Source: Lophium mytilinum (lineage: Eukaryota > Ascomycota > Dothideomycetes > Mytilinidiales > Mytilinidiaceae). From it: 64,000 nucleotides of DNA. The translations under genes and the position numbers were made by a program. The stretch is from positions 1,197,897 through 1,261,896 of the forward strand of contig MU004184.1 of assembly GCA_010093605.1 (NCBI GenBank), written 5' to 3'. Below the pieces are notes generated by a model. It worked only from the letters and a program-made list of their open reading frames with translations. It was not told the origin of the DNA and ran no database searches. Below, piece by piece: positions 14,098 to 56,441 of the stretch (the first letter of the stretch is position 1; each line of letters opens with the position of its first letter).

Positions 14098-16807
14098 ATG
14101 GCAACCACCACCCAGGTAAGCACTAAGCTGCATCTAGTATTCCTGCATGTTTACTTGTCGCATTGCTCTGCACAATACAGCGCACGCATCGCATCGTCCT
14201 GTCCACAAGATTTGTTTGACTCACAACATCGCAGCAGGACACGTCTGTCGTGAAGAACGAAGATGACTATTTCGACGACGATGATTCGGACGCGGAAGCT
14301 GCCAGCGACGGCTCTGGCAATGAAGTGTTCGAGCCCGCAGAGAGGCTGAAGGACCCAGGAGTAGAGCGGAGACCCATACGCCAGATCATAGGTGAGTCTA
14401 AGAAACTCAAGCTCCTAAGAGTGAAATCGTCACGGTTTGCGGCTTGGGCTAACATTGGTGCAAGCTCTGGTCGATGGTCCGTATCTAGATCTCGAACCCG
14501 ACTATCAACGAGGGGTCGTCTGGTCAGGTATGTTCATTTCACTAGGCTTGCCACCATATTAGTTCCCCAGCTAACCCTATGATATAGAGGAGCGGATGGT
14601 CAAATTAATCGATTCACTGATGGGTAAGTGGACTCCGCCTTCGGAGCTCCGTACTCAGACGCTTACACTCAACAGAGAACTACTATGTTCCTCCCGTAAT
14701 CTTCAACTGCGAGAGACTACCGGCGAATGACGCAGGCGAACGATGGAAGCGTGTATGTGTGGATGGGAAGCAGCGCATCTCATCCATTCACGCTTTCATC
14801 AAAGGCAAAATCCCGTGTCATGACAAAGACAAGAACAAATGGTATTTCACGGCGCCGGATCACCCGAGGCGCCGCGTGCTTCCGCAGCGCGTAAAGGAAC
14901 AATTCCAGAACAAGGAGATTGTATGCTTTGAATATCCAAGTCTGAGTAGGCAACAAGAAGAAGACTTGTTCGCGCGCGTCCAGCTGGGGATGGCACTTAC
15001 GCCAGCTGAGAAGATGCGAGCGACCAACGGACCATGGCAAGAGTTTGCCCGAATGTTCGAAGAGGACTTTAGACCCATCATGAAACTACTCACCGCGCAA
15101 ACGCAAGCTCGCTCTGGAGGATTTAGGCTGTTCCTGGGATGTTTCAGCCAGATTCTGGAGGTCCAACATCCGACAAATGCAAATGGTATTCCAGTTTTGA
15201 AGACGAGCGTATCGGCGATCGACAACCTTCTTCGCAATCCGGAAGCATTGGACGACTCGACGAAGAGCCATCTGGCAACAGTCTTTACGACGTTCACAGA
15301 ACTTGTCAGTGAGAAGGAATCCGTTTTCAAAGACAATGGTTACGAAAGAGTGAAGACGTTCTCACCACTAGAGGTAGTGGCAGTAGCCGTCTTGATCTCG
15401 AAGTATGGGGATGCGCGAAATCATGAGATGTTGCTTGGCGACATAAGCATGATGAGAATTACCTTCCGTGTACAGAAGTTAGACCTGAAGCTGAACGGCG
15501 ACTGTTGGAAAATGGTCTGGGAGTTCATCGACACACTGGAACAGTTCCGTGGTGCGATCGATGGAGAGACAGTTCAGCCGCCCGATTCTACACCACAGGC
15601 AAGCGCCGCCGCGAAGTCTGCGAAAAAGTCTGCAAAGAAGACGACCGATAAGACGCCAAGCCGGAAATCAAAAGCATCACCTTCGAAGGCTTTGGCGATC
15701 CCGGATATTGTGGTACCCAGGGGTACCAAATCGAGACCCGTTGTGGAATCTGCTTATGTCGCTCCCGTAGAATCTGCAGCGGAGACATCGAGACAGCCCC
15801 TTGCTGAGTTTGCAGACATCCCTGTCGTAAAACCTACTGCTAAGGTCAGGCGACAGGCTGCCGCTGAGGAATCTATGCTTGCGGCGGCGAACCAGAGAGT
15901 TAATCAGGAGACGAGGCGCCCTGTCGGGGCGAGCAAGGACGTTCATTGGAAAGATCCGGTGACAGCAAACGCTTCGCATGCTCAACAATCACCGCGAACT
16001 CGACCTCTTCAAGGCCAGCCAACGTCACCAGCCGTACCACCTAGTTCTGTTCTAAGACGTCGCACTGAGGATGAGAGCCTCGCGCGCGACATTGTCAACC
16101 ATCGGGCCCACGAGCTGGGAGCCCATCAACCAGAAAGCACATCGAGGCCTTCCAGAGAACTATCACCAACCCAACCAGAGTCACCTTCTCTCTTCGTGCG
16201 GTCGACATCTCCAGATTCCGTGATCGAGCTTGATTCAGATGACGAAATGCCCGATGCTCCACCAGTTCCGCCGAAAACCAAAACTACGGTCGGCGTCCCG
16301 AAATCTTCACCATTCTCTCCCGTAAAGACCTCAAGCCCTCTTGCTCCGCCACGTAGACCAGTCGCCCCGGTTGCGCCAATGGCTTCAATGGCCCCCACGT
16401 CTCCAATGCCCTCTCGTCCTAAGGCTCCGATTGCTCGTCCGCCAATGGCGTCTCGACCCAGTGCGAACGTCCTGATGGCCCCTCGAGCCAGGCCTACTAG
16501 CATTCCAAACAAGCCTTTGATATCGATAGCAGACGAAGTCGACATACAAGCGCAGCTATCACAAGAATCTCTTGAAGAAGGCGAGATCCGCGAGAGAGAT
16601 CCACAGGATGCCATCGAGAGACAGCGACGGAATCTCCTGGCTGAGTTTAGAACCACTCGGACTCCCTCGACAGGTGCTAGTCGCAGCGGAGATGATGACG
16701 ATGAGGACGGCCCGCCCATCATCCGCAAGCGACGCGCGGATGGGTCATTGGGCGGATCTGGAAATACCCCACGAACGACTAGCCACAAGAAAATGAGACG
16801 TCCGTAG
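14098..16807 (+). CDS. DUF262 (GmrSD N-terminal-type) domain protein
   Basis: Five exons: 14098-14115, 14238-14391, 14465-14527, 14588-14623 and 14676-16807, giving 800 aa. All phases agree and junctions fall inside conserved motifs (DYQRGVVWS-EERMVKLIDSLM-ENYYVPPVIF). The N-terminus is acidic (DDYFDDDDSDAEAASD). The DUF262 domain occupies about residues 50-270, with YQRGVVW, VCVDGKQRISSI and RVQLGMALTPAEKMRA. In bacteria this fold is the NTPase half of GmrSD type IV restriction enzymes, with DGQQR as its nucleotide motif; here it is DGKQR. There is no HNH nuclease domain (DUF1524). Instead a Pro/Ser-rich disordered tail of about 500 residues ends in basic KKMRRP with a likely nuclear signal (IRKRRADG). 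The function in fungi is unknown. It is flanked on both sides by RIPped repeats. Confidence 0.9.
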
Positions 16808-43696: not shown

Positions 43697-44471
43697 TTAT
43701 AGGCCAGCTAGAGCTCCGACAACCGCCATTCCGCCCAGAGCCCACGCAGCCATTGTCTGGTGTGGCGCCATGCCAGTCGAAGTCGCGGTCGCGGATGCCG
43801 CAGTTGCAGAACCGGAGGCAGACTTGGAAGAAACAGCACCAGTGGCTTCTGGGTTGGTCGTGTTCGCAAGAGGGGATCCTGAGACAGTCGAGACCTTGAC
43901 TCCAGTGTTGTTCTTGCAGTTGGTGTTATAGTCGGTAGTGGAGAGCGCAGTCTTGGTAAGAGTGATATCGGCACACTGTAGAAGCCGTCAACGCAAGCTC
44001 CTCTAACACAGTCGCACATAATGTGACTCGAAAAGCTATCTCCCGGATTCTGGGAGAAAAGAATCTTACCTGGTAGAGTCCGCCATCTGGGTCGCCGTTC
44101 GACACGACCTGGATAGTCGCCTCCTGGCCCTCAGTGAAATTGACGCCCTCGGGCAGGCTCACTTGACCCATGCAGAAGTTGCCGAGGCCCTCTTCTTCGA
44201 AGGTGGGACGCAGGATGATGTTGTAGTTGACGCCAGGGTCGCTGCCGAGGGAGAGCAGCACCATCACGTCGGTCTGCGTGTGGTGCATGTCTAGCTGGAT
44301 GGGGGCGCCGACTGCGGGCCACGAGGTTCGGGTCTTGCTGACAGTATCGAAGCCACCGCAGGGGAAGTTGACGGCCTTGTCATCGTCGAAGCCGCGTGCC
44401 GGAGGCCAAGTGAGGAGGAAATGGGCGGAGGTGATGGGGAGAAGAGCGAGGAGAGCGAGGTTGGACAACAT
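43697..44471 (-). CDS. GPI-anchored X325/BIM1-like copper-binding protein (LPMO-like)
   Basis: Two exons: 44471-44070 and 43975-43697, giving 226 aa (intron 94 nt, GTAAGA..ACAG). The signal peptide MLSNLALLALLPITSA is followed directly by His17, so the mature protein starts HFLLTWPPARGF, the copper-brace His of the X325 family. NFPCGGFDTVSKTRTSWP, a second His-rich site (LDMHHTQTDVMVLLSLG) and QCADITLT with the conserved Asp after Cys complete the family pattern. A Ser/Thr/Ala-rich stalk and a hydrophobic end (ALGGMAVVGALAGL) form a GPI signal. X325 proteins look like LPMOs but do not cut polysaccharide; Cryptococcus Bim1 helps copper import with Ctr1. The neighbours here are a CTR transporter and a metalloreductase. 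Confidence 0.9.
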
Positions 44472-45423
44472 GGTGCAATTGAGGTGTGAATTGACTTGTT
44501 GGTGTTGTTACGGAAAGTAGTTCAAGATTGGAAAGAATTGAAGCAGGAAAAGAGGTTCAAGGGGATTAGAGGAGGAAGTTGCGAGAAAGGCCAAGAGAAG
44601 GGTTGCGTTCCTGCAGGCAACCCGAGCACCTTATGAATGAATGCACGGCAGGGCCTTGGGATTCCGGTGGCTGGATACACGGCCACAATAAGCTCACAAT
44701 GAACGCCAGGTCAAATGTGCGGCACTAAAAGAACGGAGCTGCTACGGGTCTGGGTAAGCGGCTATCAAAGGGTGCCATTTGTCTCGACGATGCAGGTGAG
44801 CAAGTTTCTACGGCTTGAGCACATTTGAAGCTCGAGCCTTTTAGGGGGCCTAGCTCGCGTCCTGCATCTACCCCTGCTGGCCCACGATCAGCACCAGCAA
44901 CGTCGGAACGCAGAATTCACAGGACACACCAAAAATGGACCGTGCGCAACACTTCATCACGCTTCCACAACGCAGTACAGTCATGGTAACAACAATGGAC
45001 AAATAGCTTGGTTGACCACTTGCGTGGGTCGTCCGACAATTTTAGGATAGTTCTGGGTCTGTGGTGTGGAGAGACTTGTCAGTGAGAGTGCTAACTGAGT
45101 GGGCCGAAGTCGACGGCCCCACCAAATGCCCCGCCACCAAGGTTGTCTTGCGGCCGAGCGACTGTCATCCCAAGCTTTGTTACAGGATTCATTGTGCTCA
45201 ATAGTAGGCAACTACTGTCGTTGAAGTGAGGTATATGAGGTGAGTTCTATTGCTAGGGTAGTGTGCCGCTCCGCACTGGAATAGCTATCTCGAGGAACCC
45301 AAACTCCTCCGATCCCAGCCATGATATTGTCACCTTCCACGAATGGACCGCAAACGCCGAGCCCGATGCAAACAATATTAATAACTCCCAAACAACTGTC
45401 CAGACGGCTAATAATATCCAGCA
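44472..45423. other. X325 gene promoter and CTR 3' side
   Basis: No gene was recognised. It contains two Mac1/MacA-like copper-response motif candidates (44797-44806 and 44816-44823). Minus-strand frames at 44981-45211 and 45212-45424 have no domain. Confidence 0.5.
44797..44823. promoter_or_regulatory. Paired copper-response-like motifs
   Basis: TGAGCAAGTT (44797-44806) and TGAGCACA (44816-44823) lie 10 bp apart, about 330 bp upstream of the X325 ATG. The reverse complement of the second, TGTGCTCA, equals the site reported for Aspergillus MacA. The first (CTTGCTCA) is one base from the yeast Mac1 site TTTGCTCA. Function is inferred from motif and context. Confidence 0.45.
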
Positions 45424-46005
45424 TCAGTTCCCAGGTGCTCCGTAGCGGCCAAATGCCAGCTCTCCGAGAAAGACACCCCCGAGCACTGAAAGAAAATAGC
45501 CCACGTTGAAGGTCATGACAGCCAGCATGCTGTGGACTATTAGCGATACGTTACAAAGAAAGACATCTGCCAAAACTTACAGGAGATAGCCCACTCCAGC
45601 TATGCAAGTGTATATCAATGCTCTCGGGAGGTCGACACTGAATCGCCATGGCTGGATGTGCTGGATTGGACTCTGCACAATCATGACATGCTCTTCCACA
45701 CCGTTTGCTGATATAACCGCTGTTTTGGAGTCGGCATCCGAACTGATGCGCTCGGCGATAGGTGTCTTGTCTGCGACTACGACGTATCGGCGCTTCATGG
45801 CAGACTCCAGCCATTTGTGCTCCAGGAAGTGCAGCAGCTTGAAGCTGCCTCGATACAGGGCCGCAAACAGAATGAGGAAGATGCAGGTACCCGCATAGGC
45901 TCCGGTTGATTTGGGTGACCATTGCTCAGAGTAGAGAGGCGTCGACGAAGAGGTGAAGAAGGTCATGACCATCTCGCTCGCCGGCATCATTCCAGACATG
46001 TCCAT
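45424..46005 (-). CDS. CTR-family copper transporter
   Basis: Two exons: 46005-45581 and 45529-45424, giving 176 aa (intron 51 nt, GTAAGT..ACAG). The start MDMSGMMPASEMVMTFF is the first ATG and gives a Met-rich outer N-terminus, as in CTR proteins. TM1 is AYAGTCIFLILFAALYRGSF. A cytosolic loop (LEHKWLESAMKRRYVVV...) follows. TM2 (RALIYTCIAGVGYLL) runs across the intron into MLAVMTFNVGYF, holding the MxxxM filter, and TM3 contains the GxxxG packing motif (VLGGVFLGELAFG). CTR proteins form trimers that import Cu(I). Short length and single Met cluster resemble Ctr2/Ctr3-type members. Plasma membrane or vacuole cannot be decided. Confidence 0.93.
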
Positions 46006-46900
46006 ATTTGCGGTATTGGTGGCTACTACTGTGATGGTGTTGGGGTTTGCTTTTGAGTGTCTTCGAAGTTGTCCTCTGGAGTCTTTCTGGGGAGTGACGA
46101 GGGAGCGCACGCGATGGGTTTTGGCTGCCAGGCGAGGGTCTGACGCGCGAGTTTAGTACGAGCTGTTATCGTCCTGTGTGTGAAGGATAGACAGGCGCTT
46201 TGGTGCGAGCAGAATTGAGAGCAATGGTGCTACGGGGGTAGTAAGAGAGATGTGTGGGACGCACAGAGTGTGTCACGGCAGATTTGGAATGCGGGAAGCT
46301 GCAAGTACTACCCTTGCTCGGGCCCCACGGCACGCTGTGGGCAGTGTGGCCCGACAAGCTTATTCTATCGCGTTGGATTGAGCTTGTCGAGCTTGCAGTG
46401 GTCGGGTTGTCGTTCATCGGGTAGGTGAATGTCACGTGGTGAGAGGTATTGAGCAAGTTCTTTTGCCCCTGATTGGCGGATTTGCCTTGATTCTCCGAAC
46501 GCCACCACACAAAGCGCTAGGGACGGGCTTGTATCAACTGCATGCCACCAGATCATGACAATGCGCCGATGCACTCGTCGAACCGGCAACCCGAATTAGA
46601 AGCAGGCGTGCCCATCTAAGCTTTCCCGTGTGTGCGGGCTCGCGGCACATATCATGTACATGCCTGGCGGGAACGCTTCTGGCACTTCACATCACTTGCC
46701 CCTCGTCCTCACACGCCTTCGTTTCGCGCCGTGACACTGACACCCCTACTATCGCCGTTGGATTATCCATGGATGGCATAGCTGGCTAGACGTCTACTCC
46801 CTCTTCCCTCGCACTTGAGTTGATCAAGGCCTCGAAACTCTCCAAGAGCTTCTGGCCATACTTTTGATTTTCCGCATTTCCACCCTCAAAATTATCCAAG
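46006..46900. promoter_or_regulatory. Divergent promoter region CTR / metalloreductase
   Basis: About 0.9 kb lies between the starts of the CTR gene (minus) and the reductase gene (plus). It contains TGAGCAAGTT at 46450-46459, the same ten bases as upstream of the X325 gene. No ORF here has a recognisable domain. Confidence 0.5.
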
Positions 46901-49071
46901 ATGGACATGGATATGACAATGGGGAGCATGTCCATGGGGGGACTGCCAAAGCTGCTCGACTTCCCATCCTTTTATTGGGCTGTTGTTGGAACGGCCATTG
47001 GGATAGCAACTTTTGTCAACTTCTTTAATTATATCATATACCGTCAGAGGTAAGTCACCTCCCTCCTAGATGACAAAAAATTGTAATTGACAATCAAAGG
47101 CTATCAGCAGCTAGCAATGGCAACGCAAGACCTGCAAAGCCGACATCTTTCCTCGCTAGGACGTATGCTACTATCACTGCCATAACGCGAGAAGCGTCGA
47201 ATGCTTCAGTACGAATCCCCTCCAAAGGACGCGTCTTTAAGTTACCAACGGTTGGCCGGACCAGCTTGGTAGTCGGCAATGTTGTTCTTCTTGTCGTTCT
47301 CTCATTTTACGGACTCGATGTCAAAGACCGGTGGAAGTATGAAGATATTGGCTACCGGACCGGATTTGTGAACATGGCCCAGCTCCCGTTGATTTTCTTG
47401 CTCGCTGGAAAGAACAACATCATCGGATTCCTCTCTGGGATTAGCCACGAGAGACTGAACTGGTTGCACCGCTGGGCTGCCCGATGTCTTCTCTTCACCA
47501 CCACGATCCACATGGGCTACTTCTTTGCAGATTGGGCGCCTTACGATTACATCATCCCCCAGATCAAATCAGCACCTTTGGTGAAGGAGGGCGTGATTGC
47601 TTGGGCTGTGCTGCTTTGGATGGTCGTCAGCTCCATGACGCCGATCCGCGGGTTGTACTATGAAGTGTTTGTCATCCAGCATCTCGCGTCGTTCGCTGTG
47701 TTCCTCTACTTTGTGTACAAACACACACCTGCAGAGGTCCACGTTTACATCTGGATACCCATTGGAGTCTTCGTCTTCGACCGCGTGACACGGGGTTCAT
47801 CGGTAATATACACAAACCTATCCCTCTTCCACCCTAAGCAACGGAAAGCTGGGCAGATGTCTGGACTTTGGGCGTGCAAGGCTGAGTTCACGCCTCTTGC
47901 ACACGATACTACAAGGATTACAATCAACAACCCGCCAATTAGCTGGTCCCCTGGCCAGCACGTTTTCCTGTCCTGTCACTCTATCGTTCCACTCCAAAGT
48001 CATCCATTTACCGTCGCCTCGATTCCAGAGGACGGCAAGATGGAGTTCCTTGTAAAGGCAGAGAAAGGCGGTACAAAACGATTCTTCAAGCATGCGGAGA
48101 AGTTGAGCGGGTTACCTAGTGCGTCTCCAAATGCCAAGCCAAAGGTAAAGAGCGTTGCTATCGAAGGTCCGTATGGCTGCCTTCGACCTCTACGGCAATT
48201 CGACAGCGTCGTGCTACTAGCCGGTAGCACCGGAGCAACATTCACCATCCCACTGCTTCGGGACATTGTCCAGGGTTGGAAGGAAGTCTCAACATCGTCC
48301 AATCAGAAACAGTCGATATTCCGTAAACCAAAGGGCGCTGTAACACGGCACATCCGCTTTGTGTGGGTCGTCAAGTCTCGGGGCCAGCTTGGCTGGTTCG
48401 CCGACCAGCTCTCGGGCGTCTTCGAAGATATCGAGAACCTCAAAGCCCAAGTCAAGGGGTTGGACGTTGATATGACTATATACGTCACTTGCGACAACTC
48501 GTTCACAGAAGAACACAAATCGCTCTTGTCAACAGTGAGAGCTCCGGTCAAAACGAACTACCGGGGTGCCGTGGAGATGGTGGAGGGCGACGGAGACGAG
48601 AAGTCCGGATTGAAATACGACGAGCAAAACGGTGCACGGGAAGTCGGCTCAGAAACCTCGTCCCTCAGGAAGCCTACACAGCAGACATCATGTGGACCAA
48701 ACGGCGAATGTTGCTGCAGAGACACCGTCGAAAGCGAAGACATAATCGGCCCCGCGACCTGCTGCTGTTGCTCATCACCCCCTGCCACGACTGATCGCAC
48801 ACAATCGGCGGTCTCGTCAATTACCAAGGGGTCAGCACAGCAATTGCTCCATCCCAGCATCGCCGTCATCAGCGGTCGGCCGCAGTGCCACAGTGTAATT
48901 CGCAAGATGCTAGAGCAGGCGCTGGGCGAGAGCGCGGTAGTCGTTTGCGGGCCACAAGGCCTTGTAGCCGACGTCAAGCAGAGTGTAGTGGCCTTGAGCG
49001 ATGAGCGGGCGGTGCACAAGGGTACGGGGGCACAGGGAATCTATCTGCACACGGAGTCCTTTGGATATTGA
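46901..49071 (+). CDS. Ferric/cupric metalloreductase (FRE family) with Met-rich N-terminus and Cys-rich insertion
   Basis: Two exons: 46901-47049 and 47100-49071, giving 706 aa (intron 50 nt, GTAAGT..AAAG). The N-terminus MDMDMTMGSMSMGG holds six Met in 12 residues, likely on the outer face before TM1 (WAVVGTAIGIATFVNFF). The ferric-reductase core holds heme His in HERLNWLHRWAARC, TTTIHMGYFF and VIQHLASFAVFLYF. HPFTVAS is the FAD motif; LLAGSTGATFTIPLL and VVCGPQGLVADVK are NADPH-binding parts. Between them lies an insertion with eight Cys (CGPNGECCC ... TCCCC, residues about 581-603). FRE enzymes reduce Fe(III) or Cu(II) at the plasma membrane before uptake. It diverges from the CTR gene, which favours a copper role. 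Confidence 0.93.
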
Positions 49072-52142: not shown

Positions 52143-53063
52143 ATGGATCAGGCCAAGCTGGCGCGGATGCAGGCTTCGGTGCGAATTGGTGAGTTTAAGC
52201 CCAAGGTTCCATCATCTTGATGGAGTTCCAACGCTGTTCTGTGAGCTTTTGGAGATGAACAATACTAATGCGAGTGACTAGGGTAAGCAACTCTTCCACT
52301 CCTCGAAACTTCGTCTCGAATACCTCCGAATCTCCGACTCCGACTCTACATATCCCTTCGGGACCCTCGAAAATCTGCGGTTGCGGTTCTGGGTTCTATA
52401 ATGGAGCGAAGAGGTTGAAGCAGCTTACGAAGTGAAGAGCACGAATGGCTAACGAATCCGGCGTATAGTGGAAAAGGCACCCCGCGCCGGAAGGTTAAGA
52501 AGGTCCACAAGAGCGCTGGCACCGACGACAAGAAGCTGCAGACGAGCTTGAAAAAGCTGAATGTGCAGCCAATTCAGGCGATTGAGGAGGTCAACATGTT
52601 CAAAAGCGACGGGAATGTCATCCACTTTTCTGCGCCAAAGGGTTAGTTTGATTCTTTCCCTACATCTGCTCAGGAAATCTCTAGGGCTGGATGAGCTACA
52701 AAAGGGAGATGTTGGCGAGAGCCGCGGGTCAATGTCTTGAATCCCATCCATGTCGACATACGACGGGCGCTTGCAGAATCTAGATTGCTAACTATCTTCA
52801 CCACAGTCCATGCGTCCGTCCCCGCAAACACCTTCGCCATCTACGGCCAAGGCGAAGACAAGGAGCTCACGGAGCTCGTCCCCGGTATCCTCAACCAATT
52901 GGGGCCGGATTCGCTGGCGTCGCTGCGCAAGCTCGCCGAGAGCTACCAGAGCATGCAGAAGGAGAAGGGCGAGGACGGCGAGAAGGGTGAAGATGATGAT
53001 GATGACGACATCCCGGAGCTGGTCGAGGGCGACAACTTCGAGTCGAAGGGGGAGGTCGAGTAG
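52143..53063 (+). CDS. EGD1: Nascent polypeptide-associated complex subunit beta (BTF3/Egd1)
   Basis: Exons 52143-52188, 52282 (one nucleotide), 52469-52641 and 52807-53063, giving 158 aa. The product [39 protein letters not shown], ...[17 protein letters not shown] is the conserved NAC-beta sequence; the NAC domain is near 35-100 and an acidic tail ends it ([17 protein letters not shown]). Joining exon 1 straight to 52469 breaks frame; adding the single G at 52282 restores exactly RIGGKG. Each flanking intron has its own signals: GTGAGT..TACTAAT..CTAG (52189-52281) and GTAAGC..GCTAAC..ATAG (52283-52468). The third intron is 52642-52806 (GTTAGT..ACAG). NAC binds ribosomes and shields nascent chains. 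Confidence 0.93.
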
Positions 53064-54376: not shown

Positions 54377-56441
54377 ATGCCTTCGATACTCAATGACGAC
54401 GATAAGCAGACGGTCAAGCGGACCGTGCCCAAAGCTTCGAACAAGATCCATGCCGTCGCCGTTGCGAAGCTCTATGTAGCCTATCCGAACCAGCAAAGAT
54501 GGACATTCACGGGGCTGCAAGGAGCAGCAGTGTTGGCGAACGATCTGGTCGGGAACACTTTCTGGATCAAGATGGTTGATGTTTCGGTAGGTTGATGAGC
54601 AATTGTATGCTGTACACCGCAAGAGATGTGCTGATAGCCCCAGCCTGCCAACCGTGGAGTGATATGGGACCAAGAAATATATGACTCTTTTTCCTACAAC
54701 CAGGACCGGGTTTTCTTCCATACTTTCGAGCTGGAAGATTGTCTCGCCGGACTGTCATTTGCGGACGAGAAGGAGGCTAAAACGTTCAAGAAGAAGATGG
54801 ATGATCGGGAGAAGAATGCGCATAAAAATACTAAGTCGAAGCCGTTTGGGTCTGCTATGAACACTGCGGCCTCGAATGGAGGCGGGAACGGCGGAGGGAA
54901 ATCACACGGCCTTCTAGGTGGTCTGTTTGGCCACAGACATTCGTCCGCCTCGCATCATCCTCCGGCGCAGTCGATTATACCACCCAAGGAATTCGCTGTA
55001 ACCTCTCCTACTCAACATAGCCACTCCAACGCTGCAAGTAGCCGAAATTCAGCAAGTGAACTTACGGATCCGACCTTGGTGAAGGAATTGCTGGCAATGG
55101 GCATCACAGAAGACCAGATTGAAGAGAACGCAGACTTCATCAAAATGTACATTGAGCAGCGGAAGGCGCAAGAGAATGTAGAAGATAGTGCTGCGGAACG
55201 ACGATCAAGGGCTCCACCGCCTCCGCCACCAAGTGCACCACCCAAAGCAAACGCCCTAAGTCCGCAGAACACGGGATCATCGAGAAGAGGACCGCCTCCA
55301 GCCCCTCCGCCAGCACGAAGGACTAAGACTGACGCCCTCCCCTCGGCATCACCAGCTAGCCCGGCACCTTCTCCACCTCGCCAAGCCTCTCCTCCTGCAC
55401 CACCAGGCCCCAGATTCCGTGCTCCTCCTCCAATTGCAGACGCTGGCAAATTCGCGCACACGAACGCGCCTCCACCTCCATCGAGAGCGAGAGCTGAATC
55501 CAACACAGTGGCGAATCCAGGGCCCCCACCACCTCCCAGACCGCCAAAGACGCCGATGGAAGATGCTCCAGAGCCAGGACACAGGTTTGGCGTACCACCT
55601 CCTTTCGCAGGCTCCAGGGCTCCGGCAAACCCACCTCCTCCGCCAAGTCGTGGACCTGTTCCTCCACCACCACCAGCTCGAGAAACTTCAACAACACATG
55701 TCCCACCACCGCCAACTCGACAGACTGCACCTGCACACATTCCGCCGCCACCATTGCCTCCGAAGACATCCTCGGCGCCTCCACCATTGCCGCCCTCGAA
55801 CAATGGGCCCCCGCAACCGCCTCCGTTACCTCCCTCATCTACTCGACATGTTCCTCCTCCGCCATCAAGCCACGCACCACCTCCGCCCTCTCGGGATATC
55901 CCTCCGCCTCCCCCCATGCCTGCCAGCTCGATTCCTCCTCCCCCTCCCATGCCCGCGAGTTCAATCCCGCCCCCTCCACCTATGCCGCACTCAGCAGTCC
56001 CTCCGCCACCTCCTATGCCCAATTCTTCCGTTCCTCCTCCGCCGCCAATGCCACCTGGAAGTGGTCCGCCACCACCACCTCCCATGCCCGGCGCGCCTGC
56101 AGCCCAGGGCCTGCCCAAAAGAGCTCCTGTTGTCGACAACCTACTTGCAGATATCCGCGGCGGCGCTAGACTCAAGAGAGTCAGCTCTCAAGAAAAGCGG
56201 GATCGAAGTGCCGCCCTGGTGCCCGGTGGCGACACGGCGGCTGCTGGGGGCGCGGCCGGTGGAGCTGCTCCGAATGCTGCAGAGGGAGGCTTGGCTGGGG
56301 CACTGGCGAGTGCGCTTGCGGCGAGGAAGGCGAAGGTCAGCCATAGTGGTAAGGTTTACCCTTTTCTATTGACTTCATTTTCTTTTAAGGAAAAGGCGCT
56401 AATACCTTGCAGATGACGAAGATGAGAAGGATGATTGGTGA
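54377..56441 (+). CDS. LAS17: WASP-family actin nucleation promoter Las17
   Basis: Three exons: 54377-54586, 54644-56348 and 56413-56441, giving 647 aa. WH1 domain: MPSILNDDDKQTVKRTVP, KIHAVAVAKLYVAYP, WTFTGLQGAAVLANDLVG, VIWDQEIYDSFSYNQDRVFF and FELEDCLAGLSFADEKEA. Then come a basic Gly/His stretch and LVKELLAMGITEDQIEEN (GBD-like helix). About 270 residues of polyproline follow, with repeated PPPPPMPASSI units. The WH2 domain is VDNLLADIRGGARLKRV. The last exon adds only the acidic tail (DDEDEKDDW), which recruits Arp2/3; without that splice the tail is lost. It starts actin assembly at endocytic sites. Intron 1 (GTAGGT..CCAG) joins DVS to PANRGVIW as in other fungi. Confidence 0.96.

Follow-up and report, generated by a model that had tools for sequence, protein, structure and literature searches.

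A predicted single-nucleotide exon in the NAC-beta gene EGD1 of Lophium mytilinum

The interval 52189-52468 of the window (the whole stretch of 64,000 nucleotides analysed here) very probably contains two ordinary U2-type introns of 93 and 186 nt separated by an exon of a single nucleotide, a G that would be the second base of the codon for Gly16 within the motif RIGGKGT. We place the probability of this reading at roughly 0.88, and the evidence for it, drawn from the sequence, is strong. A first-pass annotation of the same DNA had proposed such an exon, and its coordinates and both sets of splice signals (GTGAGT/ACTAAT/CTAG and GTAAGC/GCTAAC/ATAG) proved correct to the base.

Identity and exon-intron structure of EGD1

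NAC-beta (EGD1/BTF3) is a subunit of the nascent polypeptide-associated complex, a ribosome-bound protein chaperone. By its predicted product, the gene at 52143-53063 is the one for NAC-beta, called EGD1 in fungal naming, because the product matched BTF3 (PDB 7qwq chain u, which we take to be the human protein, and others) over residues 1-156 with 174.0 bits (2.2e-50) and NAC-alpha with about 23 bits only. It showed the Pfam NAC domain PF01849 (83.2 bits against a cut-off of 21.3; 1.2e-23), the end-to-end likeness to BTF3 and the N-terminal RIGGKGT-x-RRK segment of the NAC-beta family. A comparison with NCBIfam gave zero matches. Relatives were also looked for with the 158-aa protein and with a 61-aa fragment: 29 and 37 pattern matches, respectively, were obtained in viral contigs and 182 and 197 in prokaryote genome contigs, none of which was confirmed.

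Table 1. Predicted features of the EGD1 gene, with the two rival splice sites.
Feature	Coordinates	Strand	Remarks
EGD1 (NAC-beta) gene	52143-53063	+	Spliced product 158 aa; ORF intact with the lone G
Exon 1	52143..52188	+	ATG to first base of Gly16 codon; ends CGA ATT G; BTF3 match ungapped from residue 1
Intron 1, 93 nt	52189..52281	+	GTGAGT...CTAG
Branch element ACTAAT, intron 1	52264..52269	+	9 nt before TAG
Exon 2, single nucleotide G	52282..52282	+	Second base of Gly16 codon
Intron 2, 186 nt	52283..52468	+	GTAAGC...ATAG
Branch element GCTAAC, intron 2	52448..52453	+	12 nt before TAG
Exon 3	52469..52641	+	T of Gly16, then GKGTPRRK...SAPK; opens TGGAAAAGGC (TGG-AAA)
Intron 3, 165 nt	52642..52806	+	Ordinary intron, GTTAGT/GCTAAC/CAG; no gap here in the protein alignment
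Exon 4	52807..53063	+	Stop codon 53061-53063
Rival donor GTTTAA	52193..52198	+	Judged non-functional; 2/9 U1 consensus matches
Rival acceptor AAG	52474..52476	+	Judged unlikely

The predicted structure is given in Table 1. One base, required for the frame, lies between the AG of intron 1 and the GT of intron 2, and each of these introns has a donor, a branch element and an acceptor of its own. Exactly one RYTRAY element was present in each of the three EGD1 introns, 9, 12 and 11 nt before the acceptor triplet. Introns 2 and 3 are both long, seven other introns read in the window being shorter (47-108 nt), and the donor of intron 3 is slightly unusual. From donor to branch element, intron 2 measures 159 nt, which exceeds the range of 25-120 nt used in a study of stwintrons (PMC6616335). 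RNA folding of 52189-52468 revealed nothing unusual (z +1.43), 184 of 200 shuffled sequences folding at least as well.

Reading frame, conserved motif and splice signals

The first-pass annotation had claimed that joining exon 1 straight to 52469 breaks the frame, and this was borne out: the frame shifts and the first stop appears at codon 43. Retention of intron 1 leads to a stop at codon 26, and retention of intron 2 to one at codon 17. Addition of the lone G at 52282 restores the motif RIGGKGT, where the aligned BTF3 reads VRIGGKGTARRK without a gap. The mature mRNA predicted by the one-base model would contain ATTGGTGGAAAA, with the junction ATTG/G/TGGAAAAGG, and in it ATTG would be followed by GTGGAAAA; junctions contrary to the model would read ATTGGTGATGGAAAA (with an additional Asp), ATTGGCACCC, ATTGGTGATGG or ATTGGCACC. 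Alignment with BTF3 scored 174.0 bits for the one-base form, 168.0 bits for the form with the extra Asp and 158.9 bits for a form lacking three residues. According to a published description of the rice protein, VRT stands at residues 13-15 and RRKK at 22-25 of rice BTF3 (PMC4058115); the one-base model, with VRI at 13-15 and RRK at 22-24, has the same spacing, and RRK would start at 23 in the form with Asp and at 19 in the shortened one.

Splicing programmes were enumerated from GT or GC donors within 52150-52459 and AG acceptors no further than 52499, with a minimum intron length of 40 nt; programmes with two introns were restricted to GT-AG, and those that stayed in frame without a stop through exon 3 were kept. 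None of the 41 single-intron programmes obtained in this way gave the conserved motif, and among the 137 two-intron programmes only one did, namely 52189-52281, G, 52283-52468. The earlier claim that the G at 52282 yields the conserved motif is thereby upheld, this being the sole motif-restoring programme enumerated and BTF3 aligning with its product without a gap in the motif. The consensus described for Aspergillus is GTRWGY for the donor, RYTRAY for the branch element and YAG for the acceptor (PMC6616335). Two GTRWGY donors together with two YAG acceptors occurred in 2 of the 137 two-intron programmes; the other of these lacks a branch element for its downstream intron and adds residues encoded by intron sequence to the protein. 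All six consensus elements, each of the three kinds twice, were found in the one-base programme only, among the programmes enumerated.

Compared with the U1 consensus, the two proposed donors each agree at 6 of 9 positions, as does the donor of EGD1 intron 3, and seven other introns of the window agree at 5-8 of 9. In the eight reference introns (these seven and EGD1 intron 3), position +5 is G, position +6 is C or T and the acceptor is YAG; the set is biased in that joins with good donors were chosen preferentially and a branch element was a precondition. In order to assemble this set, 12 joins were picked by eye and one was arbitrary, and seven of these 13 were kept; candidates numbered 559 joins across 237 ORF pairs, 45 of which were listed for the choice. 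Four of the introns kept are backed by Pfam domains over the joined protein (ArgC, WH1/Las17, Atg1 intron 2 and INSIG), and three were judged by the joined translation and by recall of the families (ERCC4/Rad1, Ctr and Atg1 intron 1). The six joins dropped were the arbitrary one, one variant for Ctr, two for a GmrSD_N-like gene and two for a ferric reductase intron, the likelier of which ends in AAG. Unsupervised learning of introns from the window was judged to choose false introns inside exons, and its output was not used. GTRWGY donors were enriched only weakly near branch elements, both those followed by YAG (108 elements; 26 donors upstream, 13 in the control region downstream) and those followed by AAG (52 elements; 15 upstream, 4 in the control); the corresponding counts for GTTTAA were 3 against 2 and 2 against 0.

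The window looks fungal, with spliced genes containing Pfam domains such as Atg1, WH1 (Las17-type), ArgB/C, INSIG and a Cdc6/ORC-type ATPase. A gene for a BIM1-like copper acquisition factor (43929-44507, - strand), an ORF for a Ctr copper transporter (45580-46152, - strand), which probably extends past an intron at 45530-45580, and a gene of ferric-reductase type (47074-49068, + strand) adjoin one another, and this region (43929-49068) is a candidate metal-uptake cluster. In the probable 5' intron of the ferric reductase gene (47050-47099), an AAG end is apparently preferred over a CAG 8 nt further on, and this end would bring an upstream MDMDMTMGSMSMGG start into frame; AAG acceptors may occur in the window. 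Downstream of the WH1 domain, the Las17/WASP-type gene at 54638-56413 encodes a repeat very rich in proline (PPPPPMPASSI and the like). The gene at 14220-16804 has candidate introns, in two variants, near 14528-14628 and a GmrSD_N-like stretch scoring 23.5 bits, below the Pfam cut-off of 33.2. GmrSD_N is a domain of bacterial restriction systems.

Chance expectation and rival explanations

The composite RYTRAY-N4-24-YAG-N-GTRWGY had a single match across the two strands of the 64 kb, at the EGD1 site. In dinucleotide shuffles of the 245-nt interior it arose 9 times in 20000, and twice in 20000 with G as the single base. As a mean over exon sizes of 0-100, the background of the window was 0.38 sites per size on both strands, equivalent to 0.0007 per 245 nt for a given size. 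Looser yardsticks are weaker evidence against chance: a relaxed composite appeared in 422 of 20000 shuffles (about 2 per cent) and at 10 places in the window, the EGD1 site included, and any strict internal exon of 1-60 nt in 76 of 5000. These chance rates do not yet include the further demands that frame and motif make.

The most serious alternative is an error of one base in the assembly, or a real loss of one base, at an exon edge, because such an error would create exactly this need for one base. A single undercalled base at either edge would make the one-base exon needless, leaving one ordinary intron with inner signals present by chance. We give this explanation a low probability, as it needs the error to fall on precisely one of two positions together with an independent match to the composite (9/20000 shuffles); besides, the remaining exons of EGD1 read open, and several genes nearby contain long ORFs without interruption. 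The first-pass annotation had overlooked it, together with an in-frame rival acceptor at 52476, and had named as competitor the donor GTTTAA four bases downstream of GTGAGT. The joined translation agrees that this donor would give RIGDGKG.

A single 276-nt intron from GTTTAA (52193) to the TAG at 52468 would be open and in frame, would need one intron only and would employ the good GCTAAC/TAG end, at the cost of one extra Asp. It is nevertheless very improbable: TGA/GTTTAA matches 2 of 9 positions of the U1 consensus against 6 of 9 for GTGAGT, the eight reference introns carry G at +5, the insertion breaks the motif (168.0 against 174.0 bits), and the whole inner set ACTAAT-TAG-G-GTAAGC would have no role. 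The in-frame 288-nt intron from GTGAGT (52189) to AAG (52476) has a strong donor and would give RIGTPRRK, three residues shorter. Saccharomyces Egd1 is itself shorter in the RIGGKGT stretch, which counts for this intron, and its acceptor type alone is not enough to dismiss it, because the probable ferric reductase intron at 47050-47099 seems to use AAG. Yet splicing would have to skip the TAG at 52468, which lies closer to the branch element (12 against 20 nt), and would remove three residues of a motif intact in BTF3 (158.9 against 174.0 bits), the inner signals again being left unexplained; we consider its use highly improbable. A nested stwintron of the published type ([D1,2] and the like), in which the inner intron splits the outer donor, is extremely improbable here, even though such introns are described in filamentous ascomycetes and share the same logic of sequential splicing (PMC5639578). 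At EGD1 the inner acceptor is followed by G/GTAAGC with the outer donor whole (52283-52288), the split falling between exon positions -2 and -1, and the inner intron interrupts neither the outer donor nor the branch element nor the acceptor. In formal terms the structure thus counts as a pair of introns with a 1-nt exon.

Proposed splicing and comparison with known one-base exons

For the one-base exon, each flanking intron would be recognised on its own, by intron definition, with the two being removed in succession, because an exon of 1 nt is too short to be bound by a 3'-splice-site complex and U1 simultaneously; sequential removal is argued for in the same way by the authors of the APC11 work (PMC4674806). 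Either order would be feasible, both leaving an ordinary second intron. Removal of intron 1 first would produce TGG/GTAAGC, an ordinary donor, and removal of intron 2 first would produce CTAG/GTGG, an ordinary acceptor. The arrangement may act in the manner of a recursive splice site, or of a stwintron with its inner intron placed one base upstream of the donor of the outer one. Any product without the one-base exon ends early and would be expected to be a target of NMD. As EGD1 is short and presumably well expressed, it could serve as a practical test bed for a fixed order of removal of introns one base apart.

Two routes of origin are conceivable. A lost exon base could have been rescued by a cryptic AGGGT, as the authors of the CYP621A study propose for their gene (PMC12940212), or, in our own view of a second route, an intron may have been gained one base from an old one. 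It could also be imagined that a whole fungal clade has the 1-nt exon as a fixed feature of EGD1, there highly expressed, and that splicing of this exon is a control point whose rate sets the amount of NAC-beta and hence of the nascent-chain chaperone, because both introns would have to go in sequence and exon skipping or retention of either intron leads to an early stop (codons 43, 26 and 17); we regard this idea as unlikely.

The first-pass annotation was right in calling one-nucleotide exons rare, but it cited one in APC11 alone, whereas VPS55 (PMC8831610) and CYP621A (PMC12940212) have been published too. One-base exons are reported to be missed by annotation, both in the CYP621A paper (PMC12940212) and in the plant papers. 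In plants, the exons of APC11 and VPS55 are supported by RT-PCR and RNA-seq (PMC8831610). Like EGD1 as predicted here, Arabidopsis APC11 is a conserved eukaryotic gene with a constitutive 1-nt exon for which sequential intron removal has been proposed, but its exon is an A in a plant gene, proven by cDNA and reporter constructs (PMC4674806). VPS55 of land plants shares with EGD1 a 1-nt exon that affects the N-terminal part, as well as GTRAGT donors; in contrast to EGD1, it is a plant gene whose exon is described as conserved across many species and alternative in some plants (PMC8831610).

Among fungal systems, the stwintrons of Pezizomycotina also consist of two U2 introns back to back that are spliced consecutively by intron definition, but their inner intron lies within a splicing element of the outer intron, with zero exon bases between them (PMC5639578, PMC6616335). 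A one-base exon between two introns is likewise described in a fungal mitogenome, that of Ophiostoma (rnl-576/577), although there the introns are mitochondrial tandem group II introns and the gene is an rRNA gene (PMC12308204). No report of a one-base exon in EGD1 was found in the open-licence PubMed Central literature searched. The closest counterpart is CYP621A of Fusarium, documented by RNA reads of two species and 20 orthologues, with an insertion of 139 nt in F. graminearum (PMC12940212). Both are ascomycete genes with an AGGGT in which the lone base is the central one of a Gly codon belonging to a conserved motif and its omission breaks the frame; CYP621A is a P450 gene with proof from RNA (PMC12940212), whereas EGD1 is a NAC-beta gene with a 280-nt insertion known from one genomic sequence. 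The AG-G-GT arrangement in a Gly codon, common to both, suggests that such exons may recur. If confirmed by RNA, EGD1 would be a second case of a one-base exon in a fungal nuclear gene, CYP621A being the sole other one found in the literature searched, and, unlike that P450 gene, a conserved translation-associated one. As predicted from its sequence, EGD1 represents a well-supported further case of a rare exon type already known from plant APC11 and VPS55 and from Fusarium CYP621A.
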